Positions 10,145 to 59,954 of a stretch of DNA of 64,000 nucleotides are shown here, one piece after another (position 1 is the first letter of the stretch; every line of letters begins with the position of its first letter). A program made the position numbers and the translations under genes. Location of the stretch: contig CANIEU010000003.1 of the NCBI GenBank assembly GCA_947466585.1, positions 1 to 64,000 of the forward strand, given 5' to 3'. The DNA comes from Fibrobacterota bacterium (GTDB lineage Bacteria; Fibrobacterota; Fibrobacteria; UBA11236). The notes under the pieces were generated by a model. It saw nothing but the letters and a program-made list of their open reading frames with translations, made no database searches and was not told where the DNA came from.

Positions 10145-11164
10145 CTACTTGTAGACCTCGAAGAACCGTTTGGTAAAGGCCTCCACGGCGTCCGGGGGCA
10201 GGCGGTTGATGCCCGCGGCAAGCGCACGGCCGCCACCGGAGGGGAATTCGCGCGCGAGCGCGGAGGCGGGCGGGGCGTCTTTGCGGCCGTGCGGCGCACG
10301 GACGGAAACCTGAAAAGAGCCGTCGTGCAAGGGATGCAAGATGGCAACCGCGCGGTCGGGTTCGGCGAGCGCGACGCGGTTGGCGAAGGTGGAGCCCAAT
10401 CGCCTCGCCCACGCCTCGCCCGGGAGGGCATACAGGGACGCACCGGACCGCGAGTCGACCGGGGAGAGACCGATCATGGCCTGCTCGTCTTCGTGCAATT
10501 GGGCGCGCAACGGGGCGATCAGGCCGCTCTCCTGCAGAAAGGCGACGGGGTCGCGGAAGGCGCTCATGCACTCGGCCACGTGGAGCGGGGCGAACAACAC
10601 GTCGTCGAGGGATTCACCGTAGGCGTTGTAGTTCAGGAGTTCGCCGGCCTCGCGCAAACTTTCCTGCAAGCCTTCGCGCTCCGACGCAGGAAGCGCGAGG
10701 GTGGCGAGCAGGGCATCGGCGGCTTCGGGTACGTTGTCGCCGAATGCGGCCATGGCCGCCCAGCGTGGGTCGGGTTCGGACCCTTTCCGGGCCAGGTCGG
10801 CATGCACGAGCAGGGCGGTGCAGGTGCCACGGGCCGTTACGATGTGGGAGCGGAAGCGCGAGGATCGGGGAACTTCCCCGGGCTCATGGTGATCATACCA
10901 AGTGACCCGAATGGTAGGATTTCGCAGCATCCTGAGCAGATCGTCCCGATTATCGCCCAGGTTGATATCGCAAACGCAGAGATCGAGCCCTTCCTCGCCG
11001 ACAAGGGATTCGGGCACGTGTTGCAACAAGCGTAGGTCCCGTTTCAGGCCCGTCACCCGCAGTGCGGGAGTGATCCCATCGAGGTGGAGCAGGTGCTGGC
11101 TGATGATGCCGTCGGCATCGCCGTTGAAGACGAAAACCGAGCGTTTTTTACTAGGCGAATTCAT
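10145..11164 (-). CDS. DHH-family phosphoesterase
   Basis: This is a DHH-superfamily phosphoesterase, 339 residues, probably hydrolysing a nucleotide or short-oligonucleotide phosphodiester. Visible metal-binding motifs are FNGDADGI (residues 13-20), DINLGDN (about 66-72) and YDHHEPG (90-96). Toward the C-terminus, GGGRALAAGINRLP resembles the DHHA1 substrate-binding GGGHxxAAG motif. It lacks RecJ OB or extra domains and the CBS/DRTGG domains of pyrophosphatases, so it is closest to simple DHH/DHHA1 enzymes. The exact substrate cannot be told. It is upstream of lysC on the same strand and divergent from hppA. Confidence 0.8.
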   Translation of the reverse strand: MNSPSKKRSVFVFNGDADGIISQHLLHLDGITPALRVTGLKRDLRLLQHVPESLVGEEGLDLCVCDINLGDNRDDLLRMLRNPTIRVTWYDHHEPGEVPRSSRFRSHIVTARGTCTALLVHADLARKGSEPDPRWAAMAAFGDNVPEAADALLATLALPASEREGLQESLREAGELLNYNAYGESLDDVLFAPLHVAECMSAFRDPVAFLQESGLIAPLRAQLHEDEQAMIGLSPVDSRSGASLYALPGEAWARRLGSTFANRVALAEPDRAVAILHPLHDGSFQVSVRAPHGRKDAPPASALAREFPSGGGRALAAGINRLPPDAVEAFTKRFFEVYK

Positions 11165-21131: not shown

Positions 21132-21836
21132 CTACCTTTCCCCAAAAAGTGCGGTGCCCACGCGCACGTAGTGCGCACCCTCTTCGACGGCGATTTCGAA
21201 ATCGCCGGACATGCCCATCGACAGCTTGGCCAGTAGGGGGTACCGATCCCCAAACTTTTCCCGTGCCGTTTTGAGAAGGGCTGCGAGTTCCTGGAAGCAG
21301 GGGCGGGCGGCCTCGGGGCCTCCTTCGACAGGGCCCATGGTCATGAACCCGATCAGGTCGAGGTGCGGGGCGGGGGGCAGGGATTCGAGGACTTCCATCA
21401 ACGGTTCGGGCGCGAAGCCGCTTTTGTTGGGTTCGCGGGAGGTATTGACTTGGAGGAGTACGCTACGGCGAACACCGAGTTCTCCGGCAATTCGGTTGAT
21501 GGCCTCGTAGAGTTCCACCGAGTCGATGGCATGGAGCGTGGCGCAGAGCGGGAGGATTTTGCGGATCTTGTTGCGCTGCAGGCTGCCGATCAGATGAAGT
21601 GCGTAGTCGCGTGGCGTTCCATCCGGGCGCGGAGGAAGCGGGAATTTGTCGAGGGCTTCCTGGACGCGGTTTTCTCCGAGTAGACGGACGCCGGCATCGA
21701 CGGCTTCGACGATCAACTCGACCGGGTGGGTCTTGCTGACGGCGATCAGTTCGATCTCGTGCGGGTCGCGGTGTGCGCGTGCCGCTGCCGCGGCGATGCG
21801 GGAGAGGATGGCATCCTTGTTGGCAGAGAAACTCAA
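21132..21836 (-). CDS. yggS: YggS-family pyridoxal-phosphate-binding protein
   Basis: This is a pyridoxal 5'-phosphate homeostasis protein (PLPBP/YggS), 234 residues. The PLP lysine is in IAVSKTHP (Lys35), followed by GVRLLGENRVQEALDKF and HLIGSLQRNKIRKIL. The C-terminal phosphate-binding block LSMGMSGDFEIAVEEGAHYVRVGTALFG is intact. The length is standard for the family. It begins inside the stop of the Lon-like gene (ATGA overlap), so it is translated from the same message as the proteolytic cluster upstream. Confidence 0.95.
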   Translation of the reverse strand: MSFSANKDAILSRIAAAAARAHRDPHEIELIAVSKTHPVELIVEAVDAGVRLLGENRVQEALDKFPLPPRPDGTPRDYALHLIGSLQRNKIRKILPLCATLHAIDSVELYEAINRIAGELGVRRSVLLQVNTSREPNKSGFAPEPLMEVLESLPPAPHLDLIGFMTMGPVEGGPEAARPCFQELAALLKTAREKFGDRYPLLAKLSMGMSGDFEIAVEEGAHYVRVGTALFGER

Positions 21837-22498
21837 GGCGCCTTCACTCCGACTGTAATCGATAGCGTTTCATCCACCGTTTTAATTCCCACCAAAACCA
21901 ACCCCTTCGGCAACTTCTTTCCATTCAGCTCTGCCACATTCTCCATCGGCGCAAACAGCTGCGTCACGCCAGCCCGAGCGGCAGCCTTGATCTTCGCTTC
22001 AAGACCTTCAACCGCATAGACCTTGCCCGTCAGCGACAGTTCGCCGGTGAAGGCGAAGGTCGGGTCGATGGGTTTACGCGTCAATGCAGACACCAGCGCG
22101 ACGAACATGGGCAAGCCGATCGACGGGCCGCCCTTTTGCGGCAACGGATCCATCACGTGGAAATGCAGATCGGTGTGGAGGAAGAGCGTGTGGTCGAGTC
22201 CGAGAGTTTTGGCGCGTGCCCGCGCGAGACTGGCGGCGAGATGGGCCGCGTCGCGTGCGGAGCCGACCAGGTTTCCCGTGAGGATGATTTTGCCGCGCCC
22301 CGCAAGCGGGAGGCATTCCGCCGTCGCGACGGTCGCACCTTTGTTCGTCAGTGCCAATCCGAGGACGACTCCCGCGTGAATAGAGGGCGTGGCAGGAGTG
22401 GCGGCCTTTGCAGGCTTCCTCGCTGAGGAGGTCTTGGCCACCTTGGCTAAAACGGATGCGGGTTTGCGGGAGATTCCCGAACGGAGGGGGGCTTTCAT
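21833..22498 (-). CDS. Stand-alone Lon-type (S16) peptidase domain, no ATPase
   Basis: This 221-residue protein has a basic, Ala/Lys-rich N-terminus of about 40 residues, then a domain matching only the proteolytic part of Lon: GVVLGLALTNKG, GRGKIILTGNLV, a DLHFHVMDPLPQKGGPSIGLP active-site strand and FTGELSLTGKVYAVEGLEAKIKAA. Ser126 (GGPSIG) and Lys169 (GLEAK) are 43 residues apart, the same spacing as Ser679-Lys722 in E. coli Lon, so the dyad is intact. Full Lon is about 800 residues with an AAA+ module, and none is present. It sits where lon normally follows clpX in tig-clpP-clpX-lon. The partner or substrate is unknown. Confidence 0.85.
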   Translation of the reverse strand: MKAPLRSGISRKPASVLAKVAKTSSARKPAKAATPATPSIHAGVVLGLALTNKGATVATAECLPLAGRGKIILTGNLVGSARDAAHLAASLARARAKTLGLDHTLFLHTDLHFHVMDPLPQKGGPSIGLPMFVALVSALTRKPIDPTFAFTGELSLTGKVYAVEGLEAKIKAAARAGVTQLFAPMENVAELNGKKLPKGLVLVGIKTVDETLSITVGVKAP

Positions 22499-22542
22499 GA
22501 GTCCCCCAAATCTAATCTTGCGGGGGAGGGCCTAAACTGTGC

Positions 22543-23838
22543 TCAGGCCGTCTGACGGCGCGGCTTTTTGCGCAGCACCAGCAAGGGCTCGGCACCTTTT
22601 TCCACCGTCTCGCGCGTGATCAGACACTCGGCCACATCGCCGCGCGAAGGCAGGGCATACATGTGCGGCTGCAGCACGTGCTCCATCGCCGCGCGCAGGC
22701 CGCGGGCTCCGGTCTTGCGTTTCATCGCCAAGCCCACTACGGCTTCGAGCGCCTCGGGCTGGAACTTAAGCGCGATGCCGTCCATCTCGAATAGCTTCTG
22801 GTACTGCTTCACGATCGCGTTGCGCGGTTCGGTCAGCACCTTGAGCATGGCGTCGGGCTTCAGTTCGTCGAGTACGGTCAGCACGGGCAGGCGGCCCACG
22901 AGTTCGGGAATGAGGCCGAACTGGATCAGATCGTCGGGCTCCACCATGGCGAGGATCTCGCCGAGGTTGCGGTCTTTGCGCGACTGGATCGAGGCCGTGA
23001 AGCCGATGCCGCTTTCGCGCGTGCGGCGCTCGATGATCTTGTCGAGGCCCTCGAAGGCGCCGCCGCAGATGAACAGAATGTTGCGCGTGTTGATGTGGAT
23101 CAGGTTCTGCTCGGGATGCTTGCGTCCGCCCTTGGGCGGCACGGCGGCCACGGTGCCTTCGAGCAACTTGAGCAGGCCCTGCTGTACGCCCTCGCCCGAC
23201 ACGTCGCGGGTAATGGAGGGGTTCGCGCTCTTGCGCGAGATCTTGTCGACTTCGTCGACGTACACGATGCCCTTTTGCGCGGCATCCACATCGTAATCGG
23301 CTGCCTGCAAAAGGCGCACGATGATGTTCTCCACGTCTTCACCCACGTAACCGGCCTCGGTGAGGATGGTCGCGTCGACGATGGTGAAGGGGACTTTCAA
23401 AAACTTGGCGATGGTCTGCGCGAGCAGCGTCTTGCCCGAACCCGTGGGGCCGAGGAAGAGCACGTTCGACTTGTCGATTTCGACGCCGTCGGACTCGCGG
23501 GTCTGCGACACGCGCTTGTAATGGTTGTACACCGCCACCGCGAGCGACATTTTCGCGCGGTCCTGGCCGATCACGTGGCCGTCGAGATGCTCGCGAATTT
23601 CGGCGGGGGTGGCGAGCGACGCGGACTCCGAGCCCGGTGCAGAAGCGTCAGACCGGCGTTTGCCTTCGTCGGCGAGGATCTCGTTGCACATGCCGACGCA
23701 CTCGTCGCAGATATGCACCGAAGGTCCGGTAATGAGCTTGCGCACCTGTCCCGCGTCTTTACCGCAGAACGAGCAACGCGGCGCGCCCGAGTTACCGGTG
23801 TTTCCGGATGTTCCGGAAGTTCCCGCCGAACGGTTCAT
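22543..23838 (-). CDS. clpX: ATP-dependent Clp protease unfoldase ClpX
   Basis: This is the AAA+ unfoldase that recognises substrates and feeds them to ClpP, 431 residues. The N-terminal zinc-binding domain has Cys22, Cys25, Cys44 and Cys47 (CSFCGK, CDECV). The Walker A motif GPTGSGKT and the segment [10 protein letters not shown] (Walker B) follow, and GIGF marks the IGF loop that docks on ClpP. The sensor-2 region is [18 protein letters not shown] short repetitive N-terminus ([13 protein letters not shown]) precedes the zinc domain, which is unusual. Its ATG overlaps the clpP stop (ATGA). Confidence 0.97.
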
Positions 23839-24440
23839 CCTTCGATCGCCTTCTTCTTGCGGTTGCCCGGATTGAAGATGCTGTCCACGATGCCGTACGC
23901 AACGGCCTCTTCGGCGGTCATGTACAGGTCGCGGTCGGTGTCTTTGTGGATCTGATCATCCGTCTTGCCGGTGGACTCGGCGAGGATCTTGTTCAGTTCT
24001 TTTTTCGTCTTGATGATTTCTTTGGCGTGGATCTGGATGTCGCTCGACTGCCCGCCCGCGCCGCCGCTGGGCTGGTGCAACATCACCTTGCCGTGCGGCA
24101 GGATGAAGCGCTTGCCCTTGGTGCCGGCCGAGAGCAGGATCGCGCCCATACTGAACGCCGAGCCCACGCAGATCGTCTGCACGTCGGGCTTCACGTATTT
24201 CATCACGTCGTAGATCGCCAAGCCCGCAGTCACCGAACCGCCGGGCGAGTTGATGTAGATGAGGATGTCCTTGTCCGGATCCTCATACTCGAGGAAGAGC
24301 ATTTGCGCAATGACCGTGTTGGAAACCAGATCGTTGATCTCGGTGCCCAAAAAGATGATGCGCTCTTTGAGAAGGCGGGAGTAAATGTCGTAGACCCGCT
24401 CGGAGCGGCCTGTGGTCTCGATGACGGTAGGGATATACAT
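23835..24440 (-). CDS. clpP: ATP-dependent Clp protease proteolytic subunit
   Basis: This is the serine peptidase of the ClpXP and ClpCP machines, 201 residues. The catalytic serine is in GSAFSMGA (Ser97), where most ClpP proteins have QAASMGA, so the two preceding residues are variant but the Ser is kept. The catalytic histidine is in MLHQPSGG (His122), and the Asp lies in the KDTDRD motif. [16 protein letters not shown] is canonical. It is first in the clpP-clpX-lonlike-yggS run and follows tig. An AGAGG ribosome site lies just upstream. Confidence 0.97.
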
Positions 24441-24678: not shown

Positions 24679-25935
24679 TTATGCCGCCTTGCCCTTGTAC
24701 CCGATCACCAAGTCCAAGGTCTTTTCGGCCTTGACCTCTTCGCGGATTTCCAAGATCTTGCCGTTCTTGCGCAGGCTGGCCTTCAAGCTTTCAAAGTCCG
24801 TACCGTAACGCAACGCCAATTCGTGGATGCGCTCGTCGACCTGTTCCTGATCCGGCTTCACGTTTTCCTTCGCCGCGATCGCGTCGAGGATGCGCCAGCG
24901 GCGGATCTGGCTCACGGCCTCGGCTTCGAGATCGGAGTGATCGTGGCCGTGGTCGTCGCCTTCGTGCACATGGCCTTGCTCCTGCAGGCGGTTGTTCACA
25001 TAGTTCTGCACGCGCGCCTTGGGAACTTCCACCGGGTGGTTCACCAGCAGGCGATCGATGGCTTCGTTCCAAGCGAGTTCGCGCGCCACGCGCAAAGCGG
25101 ACTCCTCGAGGCGCTCCTTCAAACGGGCGCGCATGTCGGCGACCGTGTCGTAACCGATGCCCTTAGCGAACTCGTCGTTGAGCTCGGGGCGCTTCACTTC
25201 GAGCACCTGTTCGATGGTCAGGTTGTAAGCGGCTTTCTTGCCGGCCATGGTCGGGTTTGCGAAATCGGCGGGGTAGGTGAAGGACACGTCCTTCGTCTCG
25301 CCGGCCTTCGCGCCCACAAGCGCCTCGTCGAGCGCGGCCACGCTGCCCTTGCCCAACTCGATGCGGAACACCGGGTACTGCGGCAGCGGCTGCTCTTCGC
25401 CTTCCATCTCGATGCGCAGATAACGCGCCATCAACACGTCGCCTGTCTGTGCCGGGCGCGCCACGGCTGCCTGGTCGGCGAGCTGTGTGCGGATGTCGTC
25501 GACGCGCATGTCCACGGTCTTCTCGTCCACCGCGTTCGGCTTCAGCTCGATGTTGAACTTGTAGTCGTTCAGCACCACTTCGGGATCCACTTCCATCACG
25601 GCCTGGAACGCGATGTCTTTGCCGGGCTCGTTCTCGAGCTTTTCCACGCGGCCGGGGCCGACGGGTTCGATGTTGTTCTCCTTGCAGGCCTCGCGCACCG
25701 CATCATCCACCAGCGTCTCCAACGACTCGGCGGCGATCGGCTCCTTGTAACGGGCGGCGACCACTTCCTTCGGCACCGCACCGGGGCGGAAACCATTGAT
25801 CTTCATGGTCTTGCTGTACTTCTTCAGCTTGTCCTGAAAAATTTTATCGAGGCGTTCGCGGGGAACGACGATGTCGAGGACGCGCTCGGTGGCGCTGGAG
25901 GTGGTCACGGATGCTTTCACGGTATTGCCTTTCAT
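24679..25935 (-). CDS. tig: Trigger factor with His-rich insert
   Basis: This is a ribosome-associated folding chaperone and peptidyl-prolyl isomerase, 418 residues from the ATG at 25935. The track start at 26013 reads into the tRNA and is wrong. The N-terminal ribosome-binding domain ends in the tail-contact motif GFRPGAVPKEVVAARY. A PPIase-like middle domain contains GAKAGETKDVSFTYPADF, and the long C-terminal helical region starts near LKERLEESALRVARELAW. An unusual histidine/acid stretch, HVHEGDDHGHDHSDLE, lies in the C-terminal domain and could bind metal. It is followed by clpP and clpX, the standard tig-clpP-clpX order. Confidence 0.95.
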   Translation of the reverse strand: MKGNTVKASVTTSSATERVLDIVVPRERLDKIFQDKLKKYSKTMKINGFRPGAVPKEVVAARYKEPIAAESLETLVDDAVREACKENNIEPVGPGRVEKLENEPGKDIAFQAVMEVDPEVVLNDYKFNIELKPNAVDEKTVDMRVDDIRTQLADQAAVARPAQTGDVLMARYLRIEMEGEEQPLPQYPVFRIELGKGSVAALDEALVGAKAGETKDVSFTYPADFANPTMAGKKAAYNLTIEQVLEVKRPELNDEFAKGIGYDTVADMRARLKERLEESALRVARELAWNEAIDRLLVNHPVEVPKARVQNYVNNRLQEQGHVHEGDDHGHDHSDLEAEAVSQIRRWRILDAIAAKENVKPDQEQVDERIHELALRYGTDFESLKASLRKNGKILEIREEVKAEKTLDLVIGYKGKAA

Positions 25936-25985
25936 AAACGGTCTGCGCGGTCTAACCTTGCGCGGCGGCCCTTTGCAGGGAGATC

Positions 25986-26068
25986 TGGTGCGAAGGGAGG
26001 GACTTGAACCCACACACCGAGGTACCAGATCCTAAATCTGGCGCGTCTACCAATTTCGCCACCTTCGC
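25986..26068 (-). tRNA. tRNA-Leu (anticodon TAG)
   Basis: Read on the minus strand, the acceptor arms GCGAAGG and CCTTCGC pair perfectly, followed by discriminator A and an encoded CCA. The anticodon arm is CCAGA-TTTAGGA-TCTGG with anticodon TAG (leucine CUN codons). The T-loop TTCAAGT is present, and the D-arm reads GGCGAAATTGGTAGACGC, typical of tRNA-Leu. It is 83 bases including CCA. It lies between the RNase G/E gene and tig and was masked by the ORF-track extension of tig. Confidence 0.95.
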
Positions 26069-57435: not shown

Positions 57436-59916
57436 TCAAACTTCGGTCTCTGCCGGCGCCGGGTCCTTTTTGGGCAGGGTCGAAACCATCTCGAAGGTCA
57501 GTTCGTCGCCGTTGCGGCCGACCTGGAGCACCGAGCTGTCGGAGACGTGCCCGCGCAGAATTTCATCGGCCAGGGGATCTTCCAGCAGCTTCTGGATCGA
57601 GCGGCGCAGCGGCCGCGCTCCCAATTGCGGGTCGAAGCCCTTTTCGATGATGAGTTCGCGCACCGGGTCGGTGACCTGCACCTTGATGTCGCGCGCCGAG
57701 AGACGGGACTCCAGCTCGCCGATCAATAGGTCGACGATTCGGTTCATGTCCTTGCGCTCCAGCGGGTGGAACACCACGATGTCGTCGAGGCGGTTCAGGA
57801 ATTCAGGGTTGAACGCCTTCTTTACCTCTTCGCGCACCATCTTGTCCATGCGCTCGTACTCGCTGTTCAGGTCGCTGTGGCCGAAGCCCAGGCCCGTGCC
57901 TTTCTTGATGTCCTTCGCTCCCAGGTTGCTGGTCATGATGATGATGGTGTTCTTGAAGTTCACCTTGCGGCCGTAGCTGTCGGTGAGCTGGCCATCATCG
58001 AGGATCTGCAGCAGCAGGTTGAACACATCGGGATGGGCCTTCTCGATTTCGTCGAGCAGGATCACGGCGTACGGGCGCTTGCGGATCTTCTCCGTGAGTT
58101 GGCCGCCTTCCTCGTAGCCCACGTAACCCGGAGGCGCGCCTACGAGGCGCGACACGGCGAACTTTTCCATGTACTCCGACATGTCGATACGGATCATCGC
58201 GTCGTCTGACTCGAACAGAAAGTTCGCCAGCGCCTTCACGAGCTCGGTTTTACCCACGCCCGTGGGGCCGAGAAACATGAAGCTGCCCATCGGGCGCTTG
58301 GCCGAGTGCACGCCCGACCTCGAACGGCGGATCGCCTTGGAGATGACTTCGATCGCCTTCTCCTGACCGACCACGCGCTTGCCCAGTTCCTGCTCCATCC
58401 GGAGCAGGCGCTCGGCCTCGGCTCCGGCCATCTTGTTCAGGGGCACGCCGGTCATCTTCGCCACCACTTCGTGGATGGCTTCTTCGTCGACCACGAGGCG
58501 CTCTTCGCGCTTCTGCTCGCGCCACTTTTTGCGCATGTCTTCCAGCTCGGACTTCAGGCGCTCCTGGCTGTCGCGCAAACGCGCGGCGGTCTCGTAATCC
58601 TGATGCTCGACCGAGGCTTCCTTTTCTTTCACCACAGCTTCGAGTTCGGCTTCCTTCTCGCGCAGCTCCGGCGGAATCGACAGGCTGGCGAGGCGCACGC
58701 GCGCACCCGCTTCGTCGATCACGTCGATGGCCTTATCGGGCATGAAGCGGTCGTTCAGGTAGCGGTCGGCGAAGCGTACCGCGGTTTCGAGCGCCGCGTC
58801 GGTGTAGGTCACCTTGTGGTGCTGCTCGTAGCGCGCACGCAGGCCCTTGATGATAAGCAAGGTTTCTGCGGGGCTGGGCGGTTCCACCACGATGGTCTGG
58901 AAGCGGCGCTCGAGCGCACCGTCCTTCTCGATGTACTTGCGGTATTCATCCAGCGTGGTCGCGCCGATGCACTGGAACTCGCCGCGCGAGAGCGCCGGTT
59001 TGAAAATGTTGCTGGCGTCGAGCGAACCTTCCGAACCGCCGGCACCCACGATGGTGTGCAGCTCGTCGATGAAGACGATCACGTTGTCGTTCTTCTGCAG
59101 CTCGGTCATCAGCGACTTCAGGCGTTCTTCGAATTGACCGCGGTATTTGGTGCCGGCCACGATGCTGCCCATGTCGAGCGTCACAACGCGCTTGTTCTCG
59201 AGCACTTCGGGAATGTTGCGCTCGGTGATCTTCTGCGCGAGACCTTCCACGATCGCGGTTTTACCCACGCCGGGTTCGCCGATCAGCACCGGATTGTTCT
59301 TCTTGCGGCGGCTCAGGATCTGGATGACGCGCTCGATTTCCTGCGCGCGGCCGATGATCGGATCGAGCTGGCCCTGACGCGCGAGCTCGGTGAGGTCGCG
59401 GCCGAAGTGGTCGAGGAACGGGGTCTTCGACTTCTTGCGCGCGGCGGCGGCGTCGGGTGTGGCGGCGGCGGCATCGCCCCCGCGCAGCACACGCTCGATT
59501 TCTTCTTTCACGCGTTCGTATTCCACGCCGATGGCGGCAAGCGCGGTGGCGGCGGCGCTTTCATGGTCTTTCATCAGCGCGAGCAGCAGGTGTTCGGTGC
59601 CGATGTACTTGTGGCTCATCGCGCGCGCCTCTTGCGCGGCGATCTCGAGAACCTTCTTCGCGCGCGGCGTGAAGGGAATCATTTGACCGATGGTCATCAT
59701 CCCGCCCGAGGACGAAATCGACTTCTCGATGTTGCGGGCCAGATCCTCGAGGTCCACGTTCAAATTCTTTAGCACGGCAACGGCCACCCCGTCGCCTTCG
59801 CGGATCAGACCGAGCAGCAGATGCTCAGTGCCCACATAGTCATTGCCGAGTCGCACCGACTCTTCGCGGGCGAGCTGCATGACTTTCTTGACGCGGTCGG
59901 TAAACATCCCGTTCAT
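57436..59916 (-). CDS. clpC: ATP-dependent Clp unfoldase ClpC
   Basis: This is a class I Clp ATPase with two AAA+ domains, 826 residues, that delivers substrates to ClpP. The N-terminal Clp-N repeats start [17 protein letters not shown]. The first ATPase has [16 protein letters not shown] and the second [19 protein letters not shown]/coiled-coil middle region ([20 protein letters not shown]) identifies ClpC rather than ClpA or ClpB. It lies downstream of mcsA and mcsB, the usual clpC partners. An AAGGA site is five bases before the ATG, preceded by a 9-base repeat. The track plus-strand ORF over it is a shadow. Confidence 0.96.
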
Positions 59917-59927
59917 GGCGATCCTTT

Positions 59928-59954
59928 TTGAAAATCCTGAAAATCCAGAAATTC
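59928..59954 (-). repeat. Nine-base tandem repeat in the clpC leader
   Basis: Just upstream of the clpC ATG the plus strand reads TTGAAAATC, CTGAAAATC, CAGAAATTC, an exact 9-base period. On the clpC mRNA this gives repeated GGATTTTC segments that resemble extra Shine-Dalgarno-like GGAT sites in front of the real AAGGAT. It may affect translation initiation. Confidence 0.45.

Follow-up and report, generated by a model that had tools for sequence, protein, structure and literature searches.

What a Lon protease becomes once its motor is gone is the question raised by a short gene in a 64,000-nucleotide window of a Fibrobacterota genome (GCA_947466585.1, contig CANIEU010000003.1, positions 1 to 64,000; species G000), in which the order tig-clpP-clpX-S16-yggS-DivIVA places a bare Lon proteolytic (S16) domain between clpX and yggS. 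The initial annotation had described here, next to tig-clpP-clpX, a 221-residue S16-only gene with an intact catalytic dyad at 21833-22498; the coordinates are right and the gene order is seen in the window as well as in relatives, while the strand is minus, the plus-strand translation of this interval being interrupted by stops and the minus strand being open over 221 aa. The features of the locus are as follows.

21833..22498, minus strand: S16-only Lon gene (P0001), 221 aa, an open frame with ATG (Lon_C, E=2.1e-37)
21860..22378, minus strand: Lon proteolytic domain (S16, Pfam Lon_C, E=2.1e-37), residues 41-213
22121..22123, minus strand: catalytic Ser126 (E. coli S679), present without exception in 40 other LonA and all S16-only relatives
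21992..21994, minus strand: catalytic Lys169 (E. coli K722), invariant in the same proteins
22379..22498, minus strand: basic N-terminal tail rich in Ala and Lys (residues 1-40), probably disordered (sequence, AF2)
22502..22507, minus strand: Shine-Dalgarno-like GGGGGA ahead of the ATG of the S16 gene
22543..23838, minus strand: clpX, intact, upstream neighbour of the S16 gene
23835..24440, minus strand: clpP
24679..26013, minus strand: tig (trigger factor), open reading frame as listed, with the true start probably at an internal ATG near 25935; order kept in relatives
21132..21836, minus strand: yggS, TTG start, overlapping the S16 stop as TTGA

As read from its sequence, the 221-aa protein consists of an entire S16 domain of LonA type preceded by a basic tail. 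It scores 129 bits with Lon_C against a gathering score of 21.1, Ser126 and Lys169 stand 43 residues apart as do S679 and K722 of E. coli Lon, H112, H114, T151 and E153 are also retained, and Pro125 precedes the catalytic Ser (GGPS), which gives the A-type site of LonA. An AF2 model from an alignment of 43 sequences reaches a pLDDT of 87, with the S16 domain confident and the tail not; its closest PDB matches are LonA protease domains (rmsd about 1.8 A), several of them substrate- or inhibitor-bound, but as that alignment consists mostly of LonA, its resemblance to active-state structures means little on its own. The odd Ala/Lys N-terminus that had also been remarked upon is real (residues 1-40, rich in Ala, Lys and Pro, pLDDT about 60) but private to the window species; it is missing in both sister proteins, those of G001 and G002, and is therefore non-essential to the S16-only type.

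These sister proteins, S16-only and of about 190 aa, are encoded at the same locus of two congeners, whereas a fourth congener, G003, carries a full 794-aa Lon at this position, and full Lons stand between clpX and yggS in the sister genus g2. Both G003 and genus g2 have a full lon in the order clpX...lon...yggS, which establishes positional orthology, and the reduction in place of a LonA to its S16 domain in this lineage is supported. Because a full Lon occupies the slot in relatives, the place beside clpX was inherited and offers no argument for a partnership with ClpX. Across 168 Fibrobacterota genomes, an S16-only Lon in mid-contig position was found in three (G000, G001 and G002), all of this genus, and a Lon above the TIGR00763 cut-off in 109; the remaining short matches are truncated at contig ends or come from family f4, a few partial ones in draft genomes being left aside here. 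G010, of the same order, and the genomes of family f7 gave no Lon match at E 1e-15. Elsewhere in the phylum, Lon is commonly missing altogether.

A mobile-element or phage origin was considered and rejected: the phage and plasmid matches are distant (<60% identity), the annotated ones are mostly lon, and the phage 'hypothetical protein' match that was opened is a Lon-sized CDS of 820 codons. Among about 58 Lon matches on viral contigs (two short or weak ones, L117 and L158, left out) no S16-only frame lies away from a contig edge, one frame with 149 residues upstream of S16 being the exception.

The slot between clpX and yggS gains and loses passengers across L043, L044 and L045, with a gene for a YCF48-like secreted protein in G001 and G002, a histidine-kinase-like gene in G003 and a glycosyl-hydrolase-like gene in G002 and G003. 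A stretch TTTATCATTGC...CTTATGGCA is common to G001 and G002 at the start of the S16 gene despite differing surroundings, and is possibly a shared truncation junction or promoter.

L043, ~10255-10285, plus strand: TTTATCATTGC...CTTATGGCA stretch at the S16 start
L044, ~10845-10870, minus strand: the same stretch

Has the missing part of Lon moved elsewhere? The window genome (2.24 Mb, 98.4% complete) contains no second Lon, no Lon AAA+ module and no LAN domain; the queries for the missing parts were the LAN-domain family and, from the Lon of a congener, the N-terminal and AAA+ region. In G000, G001 and G002 alike, the motor and LAN parts of Lon are absent and only short matches to other AAA+ proteins appear, while the same searches recover the full Lon, its AAA+ module and the LAN domain in G003. 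A further S16-like match on contig C20 is YifB/ComM and not Lon, and a contig-end fragment on C4 that resembles a Lon tail is the C-terminus of RadA. The proposal of a lon gene that kept its place but not its ATPase, and now encodes S16 alone, is thus borne out; neither the full-length lon nor the orphan Lon-type AAA+ module for which a search had been suggested exists in this genome, and a paralogous fragment of a single genome does not describe a gene that two sister species share and beside which no other Lon is found.

How the freed domain has evolved is the next part of the answer. The S16-only genes keep their reading frame at 53-59% amino-acid identity, differ most at third codon positions (differences between G000 and G002 of 0.35/0.27/0.72 by codon position) and, judged from these comparisons, are under selection, of a changed kind. 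The S16-only domains evolve fast: when trees are built on identical taxa, their branches measure 0.78, 0.26 and 0.47 with a shared stem of 0.53, against 0.08 for the protease domain of the G003 Lon; the concatenated neighbour genes give 0.19, 0.16, 0.13 and 0.14 for the four species. The longest S16 branch (0.78) is that of G000, the window species, whose protein also bears the unusual motif GGPSIG, and the two could reflect a weakening function.

Seven of the eight tabulated active-site positions are identical in the three S16-only proteins, compared with 73 of 185 columns overall. At the eighth, equivalent to D676, G001 retains the Asp that is invariant in 40 other LonA, and G000 and G002 carry Gly. 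In the inactive state of human LONP1 the dyad is obstructed by an Asp, and in the activated Lon of Yersinia pestis D676 is displaced (PMC8163871). Changes at otherwise conserved positions are concentrated. The 12 full Fibrobacterota Lons share 89 conserved columns; 17 of these are altered in all three S16-only proteins, nine of the 17 within hairpin residues 48-58 or the alpha1 start at 78-87 (p=2e-4, odds ratio 10, the p-value being optimistic since the segments were picked after the changes had been listed). G55, L58, V80, M81, E83 and P121 are 97-100% conserved in the 40 other LonA, and published structures assign the opening and closing of the Lon active site to two elements, the beta1-beta2 hairpin and the Ser loop (PMC9569914).

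22130..22132, minus strand: Gly123 replacing the LonA-invariant Asp (D676 equivalent), from the alignment
22325..22357, minus strand: remodelled beta1-beta2 gating hairpin, residues 48-58, with W50, G55, E56 and L58 changed in all three proteins
22238..22267, minus strand: remodelled start of helix alpha1, residues 78-87, with G78, V80, M81, E83 and I87 changed in all three proteins

The S16-only protein, a remnant of LonA, has, we think, probably become a free-standing, ATP-independent peptidase with remodelled gating. An ordinary LonA has lost its substrate-binding (LAN) domain and AAA+ module in place, and what is left would be an active S16-only peptidase, probably assembled with itself into a ring like that of isolated Lon protease domains. 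Remodelled gating elements would replace activation by substrate-loaded AAA+ domains, and the loss of the inhibitory Asp in two of the three species may help to free the site from motor control. Suitable substrates would be peptides and already unfolded segments, such as products of ClpXP, ClpCP or FtsH, with folded proteins beyond reach. LonC is known to degrade unfolded proteins without ATPase activity (PMC3391209). The isolated protease domain of E. coli Lon, on the other hand, crystallised in an inactive state with a self-occluded site (PMC9569914), so that activity here would depend on the remodelling being effective. The intact fold and dyad, selection and the conservation of the active site in three species count for a peptidase; to be set against this predicted activity are the D676 equivalent kept in G001 and the GGPSIG motif and long branch of G000.

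An S16 ring might instead act in trans, paired with ClpX, ClpC, FtsH or ClpB as its AAA+ unfoldase, which we regard as unlikely. The genome does offer partners, as ClpX (with ClpP), ClpC, two FtsH and ClpB are all present, HslV was not found in it, and clpX is the immediate neighbour.

57436..59952 of the window, minus strand: ClpC gene

The neighbourhood is older than the truncation, however, the ClpX of the window species retains in its sequence the IGF loop for ClpP, and at the hairpin and the start of alpha1 LonA-conserved residues expected of a motor-gated enzyme are lost, so that the ClpX or ClpC partner suggested by the initial annotation is left unsupported. In Lon, moreover, the motor is covalently joined to the protease domain, and we know of no docking loop.

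That the domain persists without catalysis, as an oligomeric scaffold or regulator like the domains of RadA and YifB, has a precedent in S16 homologues devoid of peptidase function (MEROPS remark in PMC9569914), yet the three proteins all agree at the Ser, Lys, Thr, Glu and the two His while about 60% of columns vary, and we give this role little credence. The S16-only gene as a decaying remnant heading for loss, in a phylum in which many genomes have no Lon match, would suit the long S16-only branches, but three species at about 50% identity have kept frame, start codon and active site with third-position-biased substitutions, which makes decay quite improbable. Errors of assembly or binning, or a frameshift that conceals an AAA+ region, are hardly credible although congener records are metagenome-assembled, as only 44 bp separate clpX from the S16 gene, too little to hide such a region, the gene lies mid-contig on a 203-kb contig, and three separate assemblies with genus-congruent neighbour genes have the same architecture.

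With the free-standing peptidase as the preferred reading, it can be asked how often the truncation happened. The neighbour genes join G000 with G003 and G001 with G002 at 99-100% support (alternatives, AU p=9e-5 and 0.012), whereas the S16 sequences unite the three S16-only proteins and reject the neighbour-gene tree by 36 log-likelihood units (p=1e-4). Composition was dismissed as the cause of the conflict, as the neighbour-gene result survives Dayhoff-4 recoding: G000 with G003 is still preferred and the tree with an S16-only clade has p=0.002. Recoding of S16 weakens the preference for the S16-only clade (species tree p=0.11). For the G003 Lon, the distances of its N-terminal and AAA+ region are compatible with vertical descent; rpoB had no match in G003 and was unusable as an extra marker. 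Either two truncations would have occurred, with the similarly freed sites changing alike, or a single one, with Lon regained by G003 from a close relative.

A partial counterpart is found in family f4, where the slot between clpX and yggS of G012 and G014 holds proteins of 423-456 aa in which the LAN domain is gone and much of the AAA+ core has eroded; a P-loop GPAGSGK and an intact Ser/Lys dyad remain, and no Walker B can be aligned.

L061:4205-5575, plus strand: f4 Lon derivative between clpX and yggS
L062:5042-6313, plus strand: f4 Lon derivative between clpX and yggS

These represent a LonC-like state, apparently reached separately. Twelve of the 17 changed sites are altered also in G012 and G014, an overlap that is not significant (p=0.09), so that the case for convergence rests on the four replacements 58A, 81A, 133V and 163V which they have in common with the S16-only proteins. 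It is conceivable, and we offer it tentatively, that the Lon motor was lost repeatedly at one locus, twice in the genus and partially in f4, with the peptidase kept and the hairpin and alpha1 convergently rebuilt each time into a constitutively open protease.

Among known systems, LonA shares with the S16-only protein the protease domain, the A-type site with Pro before Ser and the position next to tig-clpP-clpX; what the S16-only protein lacks is the LAN domain (none in protein or genome), the helical region and the AAA+ module (TIGR00763, 117 bits against a cut-off of 608), and its hairpin and alpha1 start are remodelled. SepM/YlbL-type PDZ-Lon proteins are likewise S16 peptidases without an AAA+ motor, built with a PDZ domain and a membrane anchor, whereas the protein described here has no PDZ match and scores 20.9 bits with the SepM model against a cut-off of 200. 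LonC (MtaLonC, TTC1975; S16.007) is a further S16 protease for which ATP hydrolysis is expected to be dispensable, but it is defined by Asp before Ser and a degenerate AAA layer (PMC9569914), in place of which the S16-only protein has Pro125 and no AAA segment. The isolated Lon protease-domain constructs (1RR9, 3WU3-6, 5E7S) cover nearly the same span and have the same fold; they are laboratory truncations, and the Fibrobacterota gene is a natural and conserved one. As S16 proteins without ATPase parts are already recorded in MEROPS (PMC9569914), the S16-only type is a variant of known ATPase-free S16 proteins such as LonC and PDZ-Lon, not a new kind. No earlier description of a LonA cut down to its bare domain at the native locus turned up in an open-access library, an absence that is weak evidence.

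AAA+ proteases are usually regarded as inseparable machines of motor and chamber, and here the motor has been dropped and the chamber kept. S16-only and full-length congeners at one locus provide matched pairs that bear on how the ATPase switches the Lon active site and on which residues release that site from motor control. In this lineage of uncultured Fibrobacterota, the S16-only Lon is a natural experiment in what a protease does once its motor is lost.
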